Positions 13,729 through 23,631 of a stretch of DNA of 37,371 bases are shown in pieces. Both the position numbers and the translations under genes were made by a program. Below the pieces are notes generated by a model, which was not told the DNA's origin, did no database searches, and saw nothing but the letters and a program-made list of their open reading frames with translations. Where the stretch lies: the NCBI GenBank assembly GCA_944324175.1, contig CALUVH010000019.1:1-37371 (forward strand), written 5' to 3'. The stretch's first letter is position 1. Each line of letters starts with the position of its first letter. This stretch comes from Candidatus Gastranaerophilales bacterium (GTDB lineage: Bacteria; Cyanobacteriota; Vampirovibrionia; Gastranaerophilales; Gastranaerophilaceae).

Positions 13729-13844
13729 GTAACGAAATGCGAAGCCTTACTTTGTTGAGAAACGAGGCTTTTTCTCCTGTGGATGAATGAAATTTTTATT
13801 TCCCCCTTGCGGAGCTGTAAAAAATACGATATAATCAGAATATG
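13729..13844 (+). repeat. repeated promoter cassette, copy 1
   Basis: About 116 bp nearly identical to 37206-37320. Both copies contain a hairpin AAGCCT/AGGCTT followed by T's, the shared block CTCCTGTGGATGAATGAAAT, and a promoter TTGCGG-17-TATAAT (13807-13812, 13830-13835). In both, an ATG begins exactly 6 bases after the -10 box. The hairpin could insulate the promoter from upstream transcription. The cassette could be the left end of a small mobile element or a duplicated regulatory module. Confidence 0.75.
13807..13835 (+). promoter_or_regulatory. promoter predicted to give a leaderless mRNA
   Basis: TTGCGG, 17 bp, TATAAT, then 6 bases and ATG (13842). Transcription normally begins about 7 bases after the -10 box, so the mRNA would start at or next to the ATG. 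No Shine-Dalgarno is present. Confidence 0.6.
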
Positions 13845-13952
13845 AACTTGAACAAGCAGACAAATAGAGAATATATAAGGGAGTCGTATTTAATGAACGG
13901 CTCAAAACCTTTGTACCACGTGGTTTCCACGGGGGGGGGGGGTAACCTCTAG
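13842..13952 (+). CDS. short leader ORF ending in a poly-G tract, 36 aa
   Basis: The ORF opens at the predicted leaderless ATG (MNLNKQTNREYIRESYL...) and runs through KPLYHVVST into a 12-G tract encoding glycines. It stops at TAG 13950-13952. A tract of 11 or 14 G's would put it in frame with the downstream prepilin reading frame. The IRxSY...YHVV pattern is faintly like the start of REP-associated (Y1) transposases, so this may be a transposase remnant. Coding status is uncertain. Confidence 0.4.
   Translation: MNLNKQTNREYIRESYLMNGSKPLYHVVSTGGGGNL
13931..13942 (+). repeat. 12-G homopolymer, possible phase-variation tract
   Basis: Twelve consecutive G's in an AT-rich genome, directly after a hairpin CGTGG-TTT-CCACG (13919-13931). 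The tract lies inside the leader ORF and 144 bp upstream of the prepilin start. Tracts of this length slip during replication in many bacteria. Its length in this assembly may itself be imprecise. Confidence 0.8.
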
Positions 13953-14085
13953 GGGCTTGATATACGGGCGTTTGCGCCATATTGGAATAAACACAAGTAG
14001 TAATACTTGTGTGCTTTGCTATGCAAAAAATTACAAAAATCATATTAGAGTAGTAAAAATGAAAGGAAACGAAGGAGGCAAGAAT

Positions 14086-15195
14086 ATGATTGTAAAAATT
14101 ACAAAACGCAAAAGAGTGTTTACTCTCGCTGAAGGTGGTCGAAGACCACTTTCAAACCTGGGTTTTGGTCGGAGTGCTTTTACATTGGCGGAAGTGCTAA
14201 TCACGCTGAGTGTAATCGGCATAGTAGCAGCATTGACGATACCGAGCATGATAGAAAACCACAACAACAAAGCTTGGTCAACCGCAAAGGACTTGTGGAA
14301 CAAAAAACTTGTCGAAGCGACGCGTCAAATGAATATCGACGGCGTAATGACAGGAGTAGCAAACAGTACAGAAGATTACATGAACTATTTTAAGAAATAT
14401 GTAAAAGTAATCAAAACTTGTGAAAACGATAAACTAGAAAATTGCTACGCCACAAAATTTGTGCAAACAGGTGATAAAGAAACAGAAGTAGAAGTAAGTA
14501 CTCTAACAACCGCAAACAGCTTAGGACAAAAAGATTGGAATACAAATACAATGGGGTTTGTAATAGCAGACGGTACAACAGTAGTAATGGCATACAACCC
14601 GAATTGCAGTAGCGTAGACCCATTCAGTAAAGAAGGTCAAAGCGGTCAGGTAGGCTGCATGAGTATGTTGATAGATGTAAACGGAAAGAAAGGTCCGAAT
14701 AGAGTAGGCGATGATATCCAATTAAAGAATGCAACAATCTCAACCTGCGATATGAAATTCCAAGACAAATGTATAGCGGCAAGTGATATCTATCCAATAA
14801 CACCAATAAACACCTGCACTGGCAGTGAAAACGAGGAATGGGATGACAGAGGAAGTACAAACACTAATTTTGCAGCAAACAATTGGGCAGGAGCAAAGAA
14901 AGCATGCGCAGCCAATGAGATGCGCTTACCAACGATGCAAGAATTAGCAGACGTAGCAACATATATATACAAACAGGAAGAAAGTCCACTCCAATGGAAG
15001 GAAACCCGAAGCGGAATAACCTCAGATTCAGACCGAGTAGCGGAACTCAATTGGGCCGCTAACGGCTGGTGCTATTGGTCTAGTGAGCCTACCGGCAGGT
15101 ACTACGCGCACGCGCGCGGCTTCAGCTCTTCCGGCAGTTACTACATCGCCGGCGTGACCAGCGCTGGCTACCGCGCTAGGTGTTTTAGTAACTAA
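14086..15195 (+). CDS. prepilin-like protein with C-terminal lectin-like domain, putative DGR target
   Basis: 369 aa from ATG 14086, chosen because GGAGG (14074-14078) sits 7 bases upstream; a longer open frame to TTG 13957 has no RBS. Residues 32-56 are a type IV prepilin/pseudopilin N-helix (FTLAEVLITLSVIGIVAALTIPSM), with Glu at position 5 after the predicted peptidase site. An extra FTLAE occurs at residues 12-16, 20 codons earlier. The C-terminal 100 residues (MRLPTMQELADVATYI ... WCYWSSEPTG ... YRARCFSN) resemble the DUF1566/FGE-type C-type-lectin-like fold used by diversity-generating retroelement targets. The last 50 codons are 64% GC and mostly NNC codons, unlike the rest. The product should be exported and assembled by the type IV pilus machinery and displayed at the surface; ligand unknown. 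Confidence 0.75.
   Translation: MIVKITKRKRVFTLAEGGRRPLSNLGFGRSAFTLAEVLITLSVIGIVAALTIPSMIENHNNKAWSTAKDLWNKKLVEATRQMNIDGVMTGVANSTEDYMNYFKKYVKVIKTCENDKLENCYATKFVQTGDKETEVEVSTLTTANSLGQKDWNTNTMGFVIADGTTVVMAYNPNCSSVDPFSKEGQSGQVGCMSMLIDVNGKKGPNRVGDDIQLKNATISTCDMKFQDKCIAASDIYPITPINTCTGSENEEWDDRGSTNTNFAANNWAGAKKACAANEMRLPTMQELADVATYIYKQEESPLQWKETRSGITSDSDRVAELNWAANGWCYWSSEPTGRYYAHARGFSSSGSYYIAGVTSAGYRARCFSN
14119..14193 (+). repeat. in-frame duplication of the prepilin cleavage motif
   Basis: FTLAE is encoded at 14119-14133 and again at 14179-14193, 60 bp apart. The 20-codon unit between them begins with a palindrome GTGGTC-GAA-GACCAC (14135-14149). The two copies differ at synonymous positions, so the duplication is not recent or arose by insertion. 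Confidence 0.6.
15046..15186 (+). other. putative DGR variable region (VR)
   Basis: The 120 bases 15061-15180 hold 77 G/C (64%) in a genome of about one-third GC. From CCT 15088 to the end of this block about 21 of 31 codons end in C, with very mixed first and second positions. This is the footprint expected when template AAC codons are rewritten by adenine-directed mutagenesis. It encodes the ligand-binding face of the lectin-like domain (from NWAANGWCYWSS to the C-terminus). No template repeat or reverse transcriptase was seen in this window. Confidence 0.6.
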
Positions 15196-15436
15196 TTTCC
15201 TCATGCGCTATCTTGAATTTTACTGTCTTCGGGCGAGCGATTTGCTAAAACTACGTTAGTCGCAAATCTCGCCCTTAGACTCTCGAGTTCGCTCGCTACG
15301 CTCGACTCCACTCTTACGTAAAATCCGCCTCGCGATAAACGGCACCGCTCGCGCCAACACCGAAAACTCAACGTTTCCGTTGATTGTCGCTCGTCTTTCG
15401 CTGCGCTCCTGCCTCTGCTCGGCTTGCGCTAGTTAC
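15196..15436. other. GC-rich intergenic region with hairpins after the VR
   Basis: No convincing gene lies here. The strongest feature is GGGCGAGCGATTTGC (15231-15245) facing GCAAATCTCGCCC (15262-15274), a 13-bp stem with a 2-base bulge and a 16-base loop, 36 bases after the pilin stop codon. Further GC-rich, CGCTCG-repetitive sequence follows to 15430. In characterised DGRs a hairpin just downstream of the VR stimulates retrohoming. Alternatively the hairpin simply terminates the pilin transcript. Confidence 0.5.
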
Positions 15437-15530
15437 TGTAGGTCGGATTTACTAATCCGACAATAAAAAGAACTATAAAATCGCGTTACGCGCAAGCAAA
15501 AAACAATCCCAACACGCAGGTGCCTAATTG
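15437..15530. repeat. 94-bp interspersed repeat, copy B
   Basis: Matches 132-225 at 91 of 94 positions. The terminal hairpin is perfect here: CAGGTGCC-TAATT-GGCACCTG (15517-15537). It lies just past the 3' end of the minus-strand dnaJ-like gene, as copy A lies past another minus-strand gene. Confidence 0.85.
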
Positions 15531-15546
15531 GCACCTGTTTGTTGTG

Positions 15547-18529: not shown

Positions 18530-20362
18530 ATGAAAGAAAATATTTTTAACAGAATTATTGCAAGTGTTATGTTGACAGCGTTTTGTTTTTCGCATGGATC
18601 GATATTAACTGCGTTAGCCGCGGATGATATTGGATTGATTCAAGATTATGTGCAACAAAATGCAGTGAGTAGTCAGGCACCTATTATAAGAGGTATGGGA
18701 CCTACTTCGTTAAAATTAAAAGGCGATGTAGCACTTACAAATAAAAGAATTCCTATAAACTTAAGTTTGAGAGATTCTGATGTTAAACAAGTACTTAGAA
18801 TGTTTGCAGATAAGGCTGGTTTGAATATCATATTTTATAGTTCGGTAAGTGGAAAAGTTACGTTAGATTTAGTAGACGTACCACTGAATGATGCTTTTGA
18901 TATGGTATTGGAAACTGCAGGACTTACTTATGCAAAAGAAGGAAATACAATCCTAGTTGCAGCCGCTTCTGATACTGAGTTTACTGCAATGAAGCAAGAG
19001 ATGAATTTGATTCCTGTAAAATATGTCGATGCGGCAGCTATAGCAGAATTTTTGAATAAAAATATCTATAGCCTTAAAAGACCGGGATTTTCAGGTTCTG
19101 AAATTGCGGTCACTAACCCTTCAACAAATGAATTGTTAATTATGGGCTCAAAAAATGATGCTGAAATTGCAAAGAAAATAGTAGAAAAATTTGATAAAAA
19201 ACCTACAATAACAACTTTCACAGTCAAGCATACAACTCCTGCAGAAATGGCGGATATGGTGTGTAATTCGCTTTTGAAGGCAACTGTGGGAACTGAAGGT
19301 GATTCAAGTGATTCTGATACAATAAATACCGGTGATGATAGTGATATTATTGATGAACCGGATGAAGAACCACTTACACTCGGCGGTGGCGTTGTAGCTT
19401 GTACCGTTGCTACTAAAGTAGAAGGTGATAAGTTCTCTTCTGTGCCTTTGCAGAATTTGGCAGTGTCTTATTTCACACAGTTAGGTACAATAAACGTTGT
19501 CGGTGGCTCTGAACAACAAATCGAAATGATAAGAGAATTTATACAACAGTCTGATAAAAAACAACCAATGGCTTATTTGGAGATGTCTATTGTTGAGTTA
19601 ACTGAGGCTGGTAGTAGAGAATTTCAAAACCAATGGTCATTTTGGAGTAAGCATTTTTCTGCAAACTTTACAGGAACTGCTTTCCAGACAAATCCAAATA
19701 ACCCGATATTCTTTAGCGGAAGTCAAAACCCTGAAGATGATAAGATAGGTAAATTCCAAGGGTCAACAACGTTGATGTATGCGATCAGATATTTGATCGA
19801 AAACAGAAAAGGCCGTGTTGTAGCAAACCCTAGAATTCTTATTACAAATGGACAAGAGTCTGTCATTGATTTGACGTCCGATTATGTAAAAACTGTTACT
19901 TCTCAAATTATGACAACTACAGGTTCAGGATCTAGTGGCGTTCAAAGAACTTATGAAATAGGTGATGATAATGGTATTAAAATTACAATAACTCCTTTTA
20001 TCAGTCCTGATGGGTATGTTACTTTGAATATTGAACCTGATTATGCTACAATAGCAAGCTCTGTATACTCAGATGGAGAAGGTGGTAGGGATTTGGCTGC
20101 GACGTTACTTCAAAGAAGAAATCTGACTTTGAAAAATGTTAGAATTAAAGACGGTGAAACTCTGGTAATAGGTGGTATGATTAAAGAAGAAGAAAAGAAA
20201 CAAGTAAATAAAATACCTTTTTTAGGTGATATTCCTGTACTGGGAACCTTCTTTAAAAGTACATCCACTGATAAATCCAAAGAAGAAATGGTTATCATGA
20301 TTACTCCAAAAATAGTCGTTGATACCGAAGATGCACAACAACAAATTGAAGAAACATTATAA
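18530..20362 (+). CDS. pilQ: type IV pilus / type II secretion secretin
   Basis: 610 aa outer-membrane secretin. The signal peptide ends around residue 30 (LTALAADD). An STN/N0-like domain (about residues 70-145: NLSLRDSDVKQVLRMFADKAGLNIIF) and NolW-type N1 domains (about residues 155-310) with an Asp/Gly-rich insert follow. The secretin domain (about residues 345-605) has RVVANPRILITNGQES, GIKITITPFISPDG and the C-terminal VIGGMIKEEEKKQVNKIPFLGDIPVLGTFFKS. It forms the multimeric pore through which the pilus or substrate exits. RBS GGAG (18518-18524 region) precedes the ATG. The gene order with PilB and PilC supports a pilus system, though GspD cannot be excluded. Confidence 0.92.
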   Translation: MKENIFNRIIASVMLTAFCFSHGSILTALAADDIGLIQDYVQQNAVSSQAPIIRGMGPTSLKLKGDVALTNKRIPINLSLRDSDVKQVLRMFADKAGLNIIFYSSVSGKVTLDLVDVPLNDAFDMVLETAGLTYAKEGNTILVAAASDTEFTAMKQEMNLIPVKYVDAAAIAEFLNKNIYSLKRPGFSGSEIAVTNPSTNELLIMGSKNDAEIAKKIVEKFDKKPTITTFTVKHTTPAEMADMVCNSLLKATVGTEGDSSDSDTINTGDDSDIIDEPDEEPLTLGGGVVACTVATKVEGDKFSSVPLQNLAVSYFTQLGTINVVGGSEQQIEMIREFIQQSDKKQPMAYLEMSIVELTEAGSREFQNQWSFWSKHFSANFTGTAFQTNPNNPIFFSGSQNPEDDKIGKFQGSTTLMYAIRYLIENRKGRVVANPRILITNGQESVIDLTSDYVKTVTSQIMTTTGSGSSGVQRTYEIGDDNGIKITITPFISPDGYVTLNIEPDYATIASSVYSDGEGGRDLAATLLQRRNLTLKNVRIKDGETLVIGGMIKEEEKKQVNKIPFLGDIPVLGTFFKSTSTDKSKEEMVIMITPKIVVDTEDAQQQIEETL

Positions 20363-20374
20363 TACTCAAATAAT

Positions 20375-22387
20375 ATGAATGAATTACTAACAAGGTTAAA
20401 AAATAGTGTCAATACTCAGATACTAAATAAGGTTAATCAATCGCTAATGGAACAATTTAGGTTTGTTCCTATTAGCGTAAAGGATAATTTTTTGTTTGTT
20501 GCAATTGATGCTTCTTCTGATAAGTCGCTTATAAATTTAAAATTAAAAGAGTATTTCCCTCAACAAGTAAAATTCATTCAAATTCCGGATAATGATTTGA
20601 CTTATTTGATTTCTGCTGTTACAAATGAAGAAGAGATTATAAGTATTCCTGAGGATGAGGTTCAAAAGCAACAAAAACTAGGTGAAATGCTTATACAAAG
20701 AGGGTATATCACTGATGTGCAGTTGCTTCAGGCTTTGGCAGAGAGTAAACGTCAAAAGGTTCCTATTGGATCTACTCTTTTTAAATTGGGATTTATTTCT
20801 CTTGCTCAGTTAAAAGAAATTTTGCATATACAAACCGGACTGGAGCTTGTAACTCCTGAGTTGCTTGCTAAGCAGGATAAGTTTGTTAATATACTTCCTG
20901 AGGATTTTATTAAAACTAATCAGGTGATACCAATTTCTTCTGATGGAAAGACTCTTATTTTAGGTGTAGTGCAACCTGTAAGACCGGACGTACTGAAAGA
21001 AATAATATATTTAACAGGTCAAAATCCAAAGCAGTTATTAATGACTCATTATGAGTTTGAGGCTTCTTTAAATACTTATTTTAGTAGTCAGAAAAAAGAA
21101 ACTCAAAAGATTATTCAACAAATTGAGCAGGAATCAGCTGAATTTGAGCAAGAAGAGTCCCTATGGCAACAGGTTGATAGTGAATTGCAGGATTCAACTG
21201 GTTCTGTGGCAAAGTTTGTTAATCAGATTATTACAAATGCGATAGATGGTAAAGTTTCTGATATTCACTTGGAGCCTCGTTTACAAGGATATATTGTAAG
21301 ATACAGAAAAGATGGTATGTTGCAAAAGGTGCTTGATATCCCTCCGAAGGTCGAATCTTCTGTAATAGCAAGATTTAAAGTTCTTTCAAGAATGAACATT
21401 GCAGAGCATAGACGCCCTCAGGATGGTACTTTCTCAATTAAGTATAAAAATGGATCATATGATTTTCGTATTAACACGTTGCCCGTTTCAGGTAAAGAAA
21501 AAGTGGTAATTCGTGTTCTAGCTCCTGCTGTAAGTTTGAATGCTGCTGATAGAGAAATTAATCTTGTAGGTGCGTTTGACGATGATATTGCAAAAATTAA
21601 ATCTATGGTAACGAGTCCAAATGGTATAATATTGACGTCCGGTCCTACAGGTTCCGGTAAAACAACAACTTTATATTCAGTATTAAAAAGTTTGAATGAT
21701 GAAACGGTAAATATTACTACGATTGAGGATCCTATAGAAATTAAATTGGAAGGTATTAATCAATCACAAATTAATCCTAAGGCAGGTATAACATTTGCCT
21801 CTTGTATGCGTGCAATATTAAGACAAGACCCTGATATCATATTGGTTGGTGAAATTCGCGACTATGAGACGCTCGAAATTGCTATATCGGCTGCATTAAC
21901 AGGACACTTGGTATTAAGTACTGTTCACACAAATTCAGCAGCTGCAACAGTTACCCGTTTAATTGAAATGGGTGCAAAAGATTATCTGGTTTCATCAACA
22001 TTGACAGGTGTAATTGCTCAGCGTCTTGTAAGAAAATTGTGTAAGGATTGTAAAGAAGAGTATTACCCGACCTATGAGGAAGCAAGTCAAATTTTTACAA
22101 ACGAAGAAGATATTCAAGATTTTATGAAAAATCCTATATATCGTGCAAAAGGTTGTAATAAGTGTGATTTTACCGGATATAGAGGTCGTCTTGGTGTATA
22201 TGAAATTATGCCTATTACAAAAGATATTAAAAAGTTAATAGCACTAGGAGCTCATGATTTGGAAATTGAAGAGGCAGCCGTAAAACACGGTATGAGAACT
22301 CTTCATAATTCTTGTATTAAACACATTTTAAAAGGTGAGACAACGATTAGTGAATTTATAAGAGTTCTAGGTATCGCGAGTGAATAG
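20375..22387 (+). CDS. pilB: PilB/GspE-type assembly ATPase
   Basis: 670 aa cytoplasmic hexameric ATPase that powers pilin polymerisation. An N-terminal MshEN/T2SSE_N region spans about residues 90-240. The nucleotide-binding core has Walker A GPTGSGKTTT (about residue 423), the Asp box (TIEDPIE), Walker B ILVGEIRD, and the His box HLVLSTVHTNSA. A tetracysteine zinc motif (CKDCKEEY ... CNKCDFTGYRGR) follows, typical of PilB/GspE. No Shine-Dalgarno is visible before the ATG; it lies 12 bp after the secretin stop, suggesting coupled translation. A retraction ATPase (PilT) is not in the window. Confidence 0.93.
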   Translation: MNELLTRLKNSVNTQILNKVNQSLMEQFRFVPISVKDNFLFVAIDASSDKSLINLKLKEYFPQQVKFIQIPDNDLTYLISAVTNEEEIISIPEDEVQKQQKLGEMLIQRGYITDVQLLQALAESKRQKVPIGSTLFKLGFISLAQLKEILHIQTGLELVTPELLAKQDKFVNILPEDFIKTNQVIPISSDGKTLILGVVQPVRPDVLKEIIYLTGQNPKQLLMTHYEFEASLNTYFSSQKKETQKIIQQIEQESAEFEQEESLWQQVDSELQDSTGSVAKFVNQIITNAIDGKVSDIHLEPRLQGYIVRYRKDGMLQKVLDIPPKVESSVIARFKVLSRMNIAEHRRPQDGTFSIKYKNGSYDFRINTLPVSGKEKVVIRVLAPAVSLNAADREINLVGAFDDDIAKIKSMVTSPNGIILTSGPTGSGKTTTLYSVLKSLNDETVNITTIEDPIEIKLEGINQSQINPKAGITFASCMRAILRQDPDIILVGEIRDYETLEIAISAALTGHLVLSTVHTNSAAATVTRLIEMGAKDYLVSSTLTGVIAQRLVRKLCKDCKEEYYPTYEEASQIFTNEEDIQDFMKNPIYRAKGCNKCDFTGYRGRLGVYEIMPITKDIKKLIALGAHDLEIEEAAVKHGMRTLHNSCIKHILKGETTISEFIRVLGIASE

Positions 22388-22401
22388 CAGGGGTATGATA
22401 A

Positions 22402-23631
22402 ATGGCAATATTTAGTTATGTAGCATTAAAAAATAACAGAGATGTAGTCAAAGGTAAGGTTGAGGCGGCTGATTTGCGTTCTGCTCGTGAGGCAGTTCGT
22501 CAATTAGGTTTTATGCCTACAAAAGTTACAGAAGAAAAGACTCGTCAAACAGTTGATGAAAAGGCTGTAAGAAAAGAATTTGATGTTGCTAAGATGAAAA
22601 AGTTGGGCTTGGCAGACAAGATTAATTTTACATCAACTTTGCAGATTTTGGCTCAATCAGGTATTTCTATAATTGAGTCTTTGATGTTTATTGAGAATGA
22701 TGCTGCAAAGTTAAAAGTTCGTTTAGTAGCAAAAGAGCTGAGACGCCAAATTATGGCAGGTTCAACTTTTGCAGATACAATAGCTCGCTATCCTCAGCAG
22801 TTTGGACAGATTTATGTTGGTCTTTGCAAAGCCGGTGAAGATTCTGGTGAATTGGAAAAGACATTGGCACGTTTACTTGAACTGCTTACGAAAGAAGAAG
22901 CGGTCAGAGGCAAAGTTATTGGTACATTGATGTATCCTGCGTTTGTTATTTTGCTGGCGATAGTTATTGTATTGGTCATGTTAATGTTCGTATTCCCTGT
23001 ATTCAAAGAGATGTTTGACAATATGGGACGAGAATTGCCTTGGATTACTCAAACGCTTATGGATATTGGTGTGTTTCTAAAGACATATTGGTTTTTTGTT
23101 CCATTGATTATTGGTTCGATAGTTGGGCTTACTACATTTTTGTTCCGTTGGGAACCGAGTAAAAGGAAGATTGATGAATGGGTGTTAAAAATTCCTTTGT
23201 TATCTGATTTAATGCAATTCTCAAATTTTTCAAACTTTATATCAGTTTTGCAGGTTTGTTATGATGCAGGTGTACCTATTATTGAATGCTTGTATTTGTC
23301 TAATTTAACACTGACAAATTTCACGTTAAAGGAAAGAATTGAAGTTGCAACAACTAAAGTACAACAAGGTCAACATCTTTCTGTTGCTTTGCGCACTACT
23401 CGTGTAATGCCAAGAATGATATTATTTATGATAGCTACGGGAGAGCAATCTGGTCGTTTGGGTGAAATGCTTTATCAGGCAACGGTTTTTATAGATAAAA
23501 AGCTTGATACAATTATTGATACAATGACCAAGATGATTGAACCGATAATGCTTTTAGTCATAGGTAGTATTGTATTGGTTTTGGCTTTGGCCTTGTATAT
23601 GCCACTTTTCGCATCTTATATGATGGATTAA
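22402..23631 (+). CDS. pilC: PilC/GspF-type inner-membrane platform protein
   Basis: 409 aa with two GspF domains (about residues 70-195 and 275-400). The family pattern includes ALKNNRDVVKGKVEA at the N-terminus, LQILAQSGISIIESL, FPQQFGQIYVGLCKAGEDSGELE and the C-terminal IEPIMLLVIGSIVLVLALALYMPLF. Three membrane helices (about residues 170-200, 220-245, 375-400) fit. It recruits PilB and forms the base of the pilus. RBS AGGGG is 8 bases before the ATG, 14 bp after pilB. Confidence 0.93.
   Translation: MAIFSYVALKNNRDVVKGKVEAADLRSAREAVRQLGFMPTKVTEEKTRQTVDEKAVRKEFDVAKMKKLGLADKINFTSTLQILAQSGISIIESLMFIENDAAKLKVRLVAKELRRQIMAGSTFADTIARYPQQFGQIYVGLCKAGEDSGELEKTLARLLELLTKEEAVRGKVIGTLMYPAFVILLAIVIVLVMLMFVFPVFKEMFDNMGRELPWITQTLMDIGVFLKTYWFFVPLIIGSIVGLTTFLFRWEPSKRKIDEWVLKIPLLSDLMQFSNFSNFISVLQVCYDAGVPIIECLYLSNLTLTNFTLKERIEVATTKVQQGQHLSVALRTTRVMPRMILFMIATGEQSGRLGEMLYQATVFIDKKLDTIIDTMTKMIEPIMLLVIGSIVLVLALALYMPLFASYMMD

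Follow-up and report, generated by a model that had tools for sequence, protein, structure and literature searches.

The window analysed here is the whole of contig C19 (CALUVH010000019.1; 37,371 bp) of a Candidatus Gastranaerophilales bacterium (GCA_944324175.1), whose 1.68-Mb genome is distributed over 38 contigs in a 97%-complete assembly. This contig carries a prepilin gene preceded by a leader with a tract of twelve consecutive guanines (G12; a poly-G tract) and with a 3' end that resembles the variable region of a target gene of a diversity-generating retroelement (DGR); the features of the locus are collected in Table 1. A GGAGG sequence stands immediately 5' of the ATG of the prepilin gene. 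The N-terminus of the encoded protein matched TIGR02532, the prepilin-type cleavage/methylation motif, above the cut-off, the Pfam N_methyl match reached 19.5 bits, slightly under its own cut-off of 21.2, and the C-terminus gave a weak match to Lcl_C (formerly DUF1566; E=0.014, under the cut-off). A first-pass annotation of this DNA had described an open reading frame (ORF) with a prepilin N-terminus, a DUF1566-like tail and an abrupt rise in GC near the 3' end, and all of these are indeed present, with a GC content of 0.633 at 15060-15179 compared to about 0.32-0.47 elsewhere in the gene. The high GC runs on, however, into a separate non-coding palindrome (about 15210-15432) that lies outside the variable region. 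The paralog family and the poly-G tract described below are additions to that annotation.

Table 1. Features of the prepilin locus, with positions in the window.
Feature	Position	Strand	Basis
Promoter-like TTGCGG-N17-TATAAT	13807..13835	+	In 21 of 23 leaders tested; absent from the list of a generic consensus scan
Leader ORF, 36 codons, running through the poly-G tract and ending GGGGNL	13842..13952	+	Recurrence; translation inferred
Poly-G tract (G12), candidate slipped-strand switch	13931..13942	+	G-run scan, leader comparison
Inverted repeat ACACAAGTAGTAATACTTGTGT in the leader, in most copies	13991..14012	+	Leader comparison, repeat scan
Prepilin gene, 369 amino acids	14086..15195	+	ORF call, homology and profile searches
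Prepilin motif and N-terminal helix (FTLAEVLITLSVIGIVAALTIPSM)	14179..14250	+	Profile matches, family comparison, model
Predicted C-type-lectin-fold domain (model residues 187-338)	14737..15192	+	AlphaFold2 model, structure comparison
Minor variable codons on the upstream side (NNC CGA NNC NN-), which probably mark the 5' edge of the variable region	15004..15015	+	Paralog codon analysis
DGR-type variable region, closing with frozen CGC GCT AGG TGT TTT	15070..15186	+	Paralog alignment, codon-position analysis, comparison with the G017 template
Terminator-like hairpin	15516..15538	+	Sequence scan

The prepilin gene is one of 31 close copies in the genome, the others being 69-83% identical to the window protein at the amino acid level, and there were 60 matches in all; the other genomes of the genus hold between 14 and 63 family members each. 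When the copies were compared codon by codon, position 3 was more variable than positions 1 and 2 upstream of the variable region, while in the last ~40 codons this pattern was reversed at about 15 codons, where positions 1 and 2 are free and position 3 is C. The codons between these variable ones are frozen, including their silent sites, and together they form an invariant frame around the AAC-type codons (TGGTCGAGTGAG ... GCTAGGTGTTTT). The abundance of C-ending codons noted in the first-pass annotation was borne out, since C is the last base of every one of the 13 AAC-type codons aligned in the window copy, compared to roughly 10-30% of codons farther upstream in the family. Sixteen loci (15 distinct and one duplicate), the window among them, have C at the end of at least 13 of 14 AAC-type codons, and the remaining copies, about half, have decayed to varying degrees. 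Among the fresh copies, silent divergence was 0.15 in the variable region compared to 0.26-0.31 across most of the gene, and therefore the variable regions of these copies are younger than the copies that carry them. Since a fresh NNC region is found at sixteen loci and the others are decayed, we infer that the divergence of the copies came first and that many of the loci then had their 3' ends written in trans, and such writing may continue in this genome today.

An independent template was available from a relative. G017, a Candidatus Gastranaerophilales metagenome-assembled genome from the same genus, has a gene for a DGR reverse transcriptase with the motifs LPIGNLTSQFF and YVDD and, next to it, a template that encodes FYVWSGQEYSQNNAYNRNFNPTNTNWNNNNRNNSNKLAVCLGN. 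When this template is compared with a remote target elsewhere in G017, on a different contig, 22 of the 41 adenines are changed and 0 of the 81 other bases. The G017 template played no part in defining the window family. Its adenines nevertheless predicted the variable positions of the family alignment, as positions with an entropy above 1 bit were found at 33 of the 41 template adenines compared to 11 of the 73 non-A positions (Fisher p=7e-12). Variation in the family thus sits at the adenine positions of a genus-mate's template, with the rest conserved down to the silent sites. A template of the same kind is present in another genus (G038), and the NNC pattern was seen in most of the 20 target ends fetched from G117, a genome without a detected reverse transcriptase. 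In the genus itself, a DGR reverse transcriptase was detected in G017 and G080, and it was undetected in four of the six genomes. In G080, the 16 kb surrounding the reverse transcriptase (L130, C9:42000-58000) hold no recognisable matching template; this genome has 43 family members.

Binding surfaces under selection do vary, and tips that diverged under positive selection with a local preference for C-ending codons would call for no DGR at all, an explanation with which the lack of a reverse transcriptase in the window assembly agrees. However, the invariant codons are frozen even at silent sites when set against the remainder of the gene, the C-ending codons are restricted to the variable stretch, and a real template from a genus-mate predicts which positions vary. 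The adenine-position test thus strongly disfavours this explanation, and we regard it as highly improbable.

The structure of the variable tip was predicted with AlphaFold2 using 50 family members (mean predicted local distance difference test score, 84.5). In VIA-align comparisons, model residues 187-338 aligned best with Bd2740 (Z 10.1, root-mean-square deviation of 2.4 over 97 residues) and with Legionella Lcl (Z 8.9), whereas values of about 7 for Mtd, the DGR target of BPP-1, and of 7 to 8 for intimin and InvE are not decisive, as Z falls below 8. Foldseek alone returned no E-value below 0.001 for the model. On the two best rows of VIA-align and the family context, the tip is predicted to adopt a C-type lectin fold, and the variable region lies at the 3' end of this predicted domain. 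The central proposal of the first-pass annotation, a prepilin fused to a lectin-like domain with a DGR-type variable 3' end, is backed by the paralog comparison and by the independent template of the genus-mate.

The G12 tract is the sole long G run in the window and ends 143 bp upstream of the ATG. In the whole genome there are 27 runs of at least ten G; 18 of them are followed by a recognisable family prepilin and a nineteenth by a divergent one, while the seven that have no more than 150 bp left before a contig end are unplaceable. Accordingly, of the 20 tracts whose downstream DNA is readable, 19 stand ahead of a family gene, an association stronger than chance. The remaining tract (L299, G000 C37:74) is a G14 with a family-like leader; the ORF that comes after it in the bases read encodes something other than a prepilin. 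Viewed from the genes, a G11-G12 tract stands ahead of most copies with readable upstream DNA. The leaders are of two types, and both share the TTGCGG-N17-TATAAT sequence, 124-126 bp ahead of the tract in most copies, and the 36-codon leader ORF ending GGGGN[LF]. Copies of one leader type differ by one G (G11 versus G12), and in one leader type a tract length of 11 puts the leader frame into the prepilin. The homologous prepilins of other genera carry the tract inside their 5' coding region, downstream of the start codon and ahead of the helix; it is in frame in L135, L142 and two cases in L147, and out of frame in L136, two cases in L137, L140, L247 and L182. Poly-G is also found upstream of target genes in G053, G105 and G117. 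Campylobacter, Helicobacter and Neisseria carry phase-variable surface genes with poly-G tracts in leaders or 5' coding regions, of which in-frame and out-of-frame copies occur. The tracts described here are like these in their location and, for the homologous genes of other genera, in showing both frame states, a picture that matches slipped-strand phase variation.

A G tract ahead of a pilin gene could also act in another way, as a G-quadruplex that starts gene conversion and not as a slippage switch, with antigenic variation arising by recombination among copies as in Neisseria pilin. The many near-identical copies with mosaic middle regions, the identical variable region of two of them (L022 and L024) and the G11-G12 tracts upstream of most copies would all agree with such a process. 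However, conversion would homogenise the variable codons too, whereas in this family everything but the adenine-derived positions is homogenised, a pattern that, judged from the aligned copies, gene conversion alone cannot produce; in addition, the tract lies inside the coding frame in other genera. As the source of the tip variation, recombination of this kind is therefore unlikely, although it may operate alongside DGR writing.

Overall, we consider it likely that the gene belongs to a phase-variable, DGR-written pilin-adhesin repertoire which, in the window assembly, is orphaned from its retroelement. In this proposal, complementary DNA made from an AAC-rich template, with errors at adenines, would replace the 3' end of the gene, and a DGR acting in trans would in this way rewrite the lectin-like tips of many type IV pilin-like genes. 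Slippage of the poly-G tract in the leader would probably switch each copy on or off, so that a cell would display a changing subset of tips, presumably on pili and with a possible role in adhesion. Several findings weigh against this proposal. No DGR reverse transcriptase was found in the 97%-complete assembly with either RVT_1 or the G017 protein, and no template repeat either, the consensus-template query having matched only coding variable regions and gene tails; the template from G017 is a homologue and not the window genome's own. Adenine mutagenesis alone does not explain the indels between variable regions, nor certain changes at non-adenine positions (alignment columns 348, 365 and 388). 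Concerning the switch, the tract is missing from four copies whose upstream DNA could be read. Moreover, in the second of the two leader types the leader frame does not run into the prepilin at any tract length from n-1 to n+1, and a ribosome-binding site belongs to the prepilin itself; on these last two grounds, the switch mechanism is unproven in the window species and stands here as a candidate.

As noted, the assembly lacks both parts of a complete DGR, a reverse transcriptase with GxxxSQ and YxDD motifs and a template repeat. The first-pass annotation had supposed that the retroelement acts from a distance; the whole-genome search found neither a template nor a reverse transcriptase, the very outcome it had named as speaking against its proposal. 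This absence is inconclusive, as assembly gaps occur at family repeats: by hand count, roughly two dozen of the 76 contig ends lie in or beside a family member, indicating that these repeats break the assembly. In relatives, the DGR reverse transcriptase lies at most 2.2 kb from a contig end in 12 of 18 cases, and its loss from the assembly is thus plausible. True loss of the DGR from the lineage is the main rival reading, in which the tips were written earlier and now change only by ordinary mutation and recombination. The lack of both parts in the window's assembly, the four genus genomes without a detected reverse transcriptase and the decay of about half of the copies are all in line with such loss, for which there is a precedent in isolates of Treponema denticola that are reported to have targets without any reverse transcriptase or template (PMC4891356). 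However, at least 13 NNC codons are retained at sixteen loci, the window included, where silent divergence is lower than elsewhere, and the position of the relatives' reverse transcriptases near contig ends makes a loss in assembly plausible. We therefore hold true loss to be a serious but the less probable reading, and we lean towards the reverse transcriptase and template sitting in an assembly gap over their having been recently lost. On the sequence evidence, we class the window gene itself among DGR-type targets, as a member of a very large pilin repertoire associated with poly-G, and not as a complete DGR. A viral source was also considered and rejected, as the variable-region end had a lone exact match, which fell in a phage ATPase gene read on the opposite strand and is a chance match; none of the viral contigs matched the prepilin, and viral relatives of the G017 reverse transcriptase were at most 51% identical, short fragment matches aside. 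The prepilin query found no relative in the genome-contig collection.

Several further features were observed around the gene. A second FTLAE-like motif (FTLAEGGRRP...; window 14119-14178) lies N-terminal to the real prepilin motif, is accompanied by a short inverted repeat (GTGGTC-GAA-GACCAC) and is missing from several copies. Directly 3' of the gene, a GC-rich palindromic non-coding stretch (15210-15432) was found, as it was after the stop codon in about six copies; beyond it, at least two copies carry a second partial gene 3' end (GCGCTAGGTGTTT...GATGCGCT), and the arrangement looks like an element insertion with a duplicated target of about 36 bp. Similar GC-rich palindromes are present in genus-mates (L152, L160, L172, L173) upstream of the prepilin helix, apparently inside the 5' reading frame. 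About 3 kb downstream of the gene (18530-23631), ORFs resembling, by their translations only, a secretin, a PilB/GspE-type ATPase and a PilC/GspF-type membrane protein were seen, which are possibly the assembly machinery for such pilins. There were no tandem repeats or tRNAs in the window; Rfam gave no RNA family in the window and none convincing in the leader at a relaxed threshold.

DGRs with remote, orphan, lectin-fold and pilus-tip targets are already known (PMC4891356, PMC10907252, PMC6642488, PMC12632263). In T. denticola, a single reverse transcriptase with its template is reported to act on several scattered targets, two to seven per isolate, whose fold is of the C-type-lectin type (PMC4891356); the scattered lectin-type targets are shared with the window genome, whereas the T. 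denticola targets are FGE-like, with no prepilin and no poly-G reported there, in contrast to the 31 close prepilin copies found here. Thiohalocapsa PB-PSB1 has nine DGR loci and 15 targets, tied to conflict systems (PMC10907252). There too, writing of remote targets in trans was inferred, with the reverse transcriptase and template at another place in the genome, but in the window genome a single prepilin family is involved and no reverse transcriptase was detected. In Bacteroides, also gut bacteria, DGRs diversify tip pilins, a pilus-type protein as here; these are reported to be type V pili made from lipoproteins, in a different phylum, while the window family has the prepilin motif of type IV pilins and its many copies are scattered (PMC12632263). 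DUF1566 DGR targets belong to the same domain class (now Lcl_C), and the text cited mentions pilin-type fusions, with some targets tied to putative pilin structures, but not a large scattered repertoire or poly-G tracts such as those described here (PMC6642488). The targets of DGRs in the reports cited here are few, seven at most in T. denticola and 15 in Thiohalocapsa PB-PSB1, atypical repetitive cases apart (PMC4891356, PMC10907252). In the open literature we found no report that joins homopolymer G tracts to DGR target genes (among the papers listed, judged by title and start of abstract only) or to Gastranaerophilales, nothing that pairs diversity-generating retroelements with Melainabacteria or Gastranaerophilales, and nothing that pairs Gastranaerophilales with phase variation.

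If the proposal is true, a 1.7-Mb gut genome would possess, in 31 close copies of a DGR-type target that mostly lie behind poly-G, a programmed repertoire of unusual size, and this would be the first link of DGR diversification with homopolymer phase variation, as far as the searched literature shows. A further suggestion from this case is that surveys which start from the reverse transcriptase overlook genomes of this kind, since their assemblies are broken by the repeats. It is possible, though we advance it tentatively, that surface variation in Gastranaerophilales works on two levels, in which a DGR acting in trans would rewrite dozens of pilin tips and a per-gene poly-G switch would pick those that are shown, giving a small gut genome a programmed adhesin repertoire. 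The binding partners of these little-known gut bacteria would then become a testable question.
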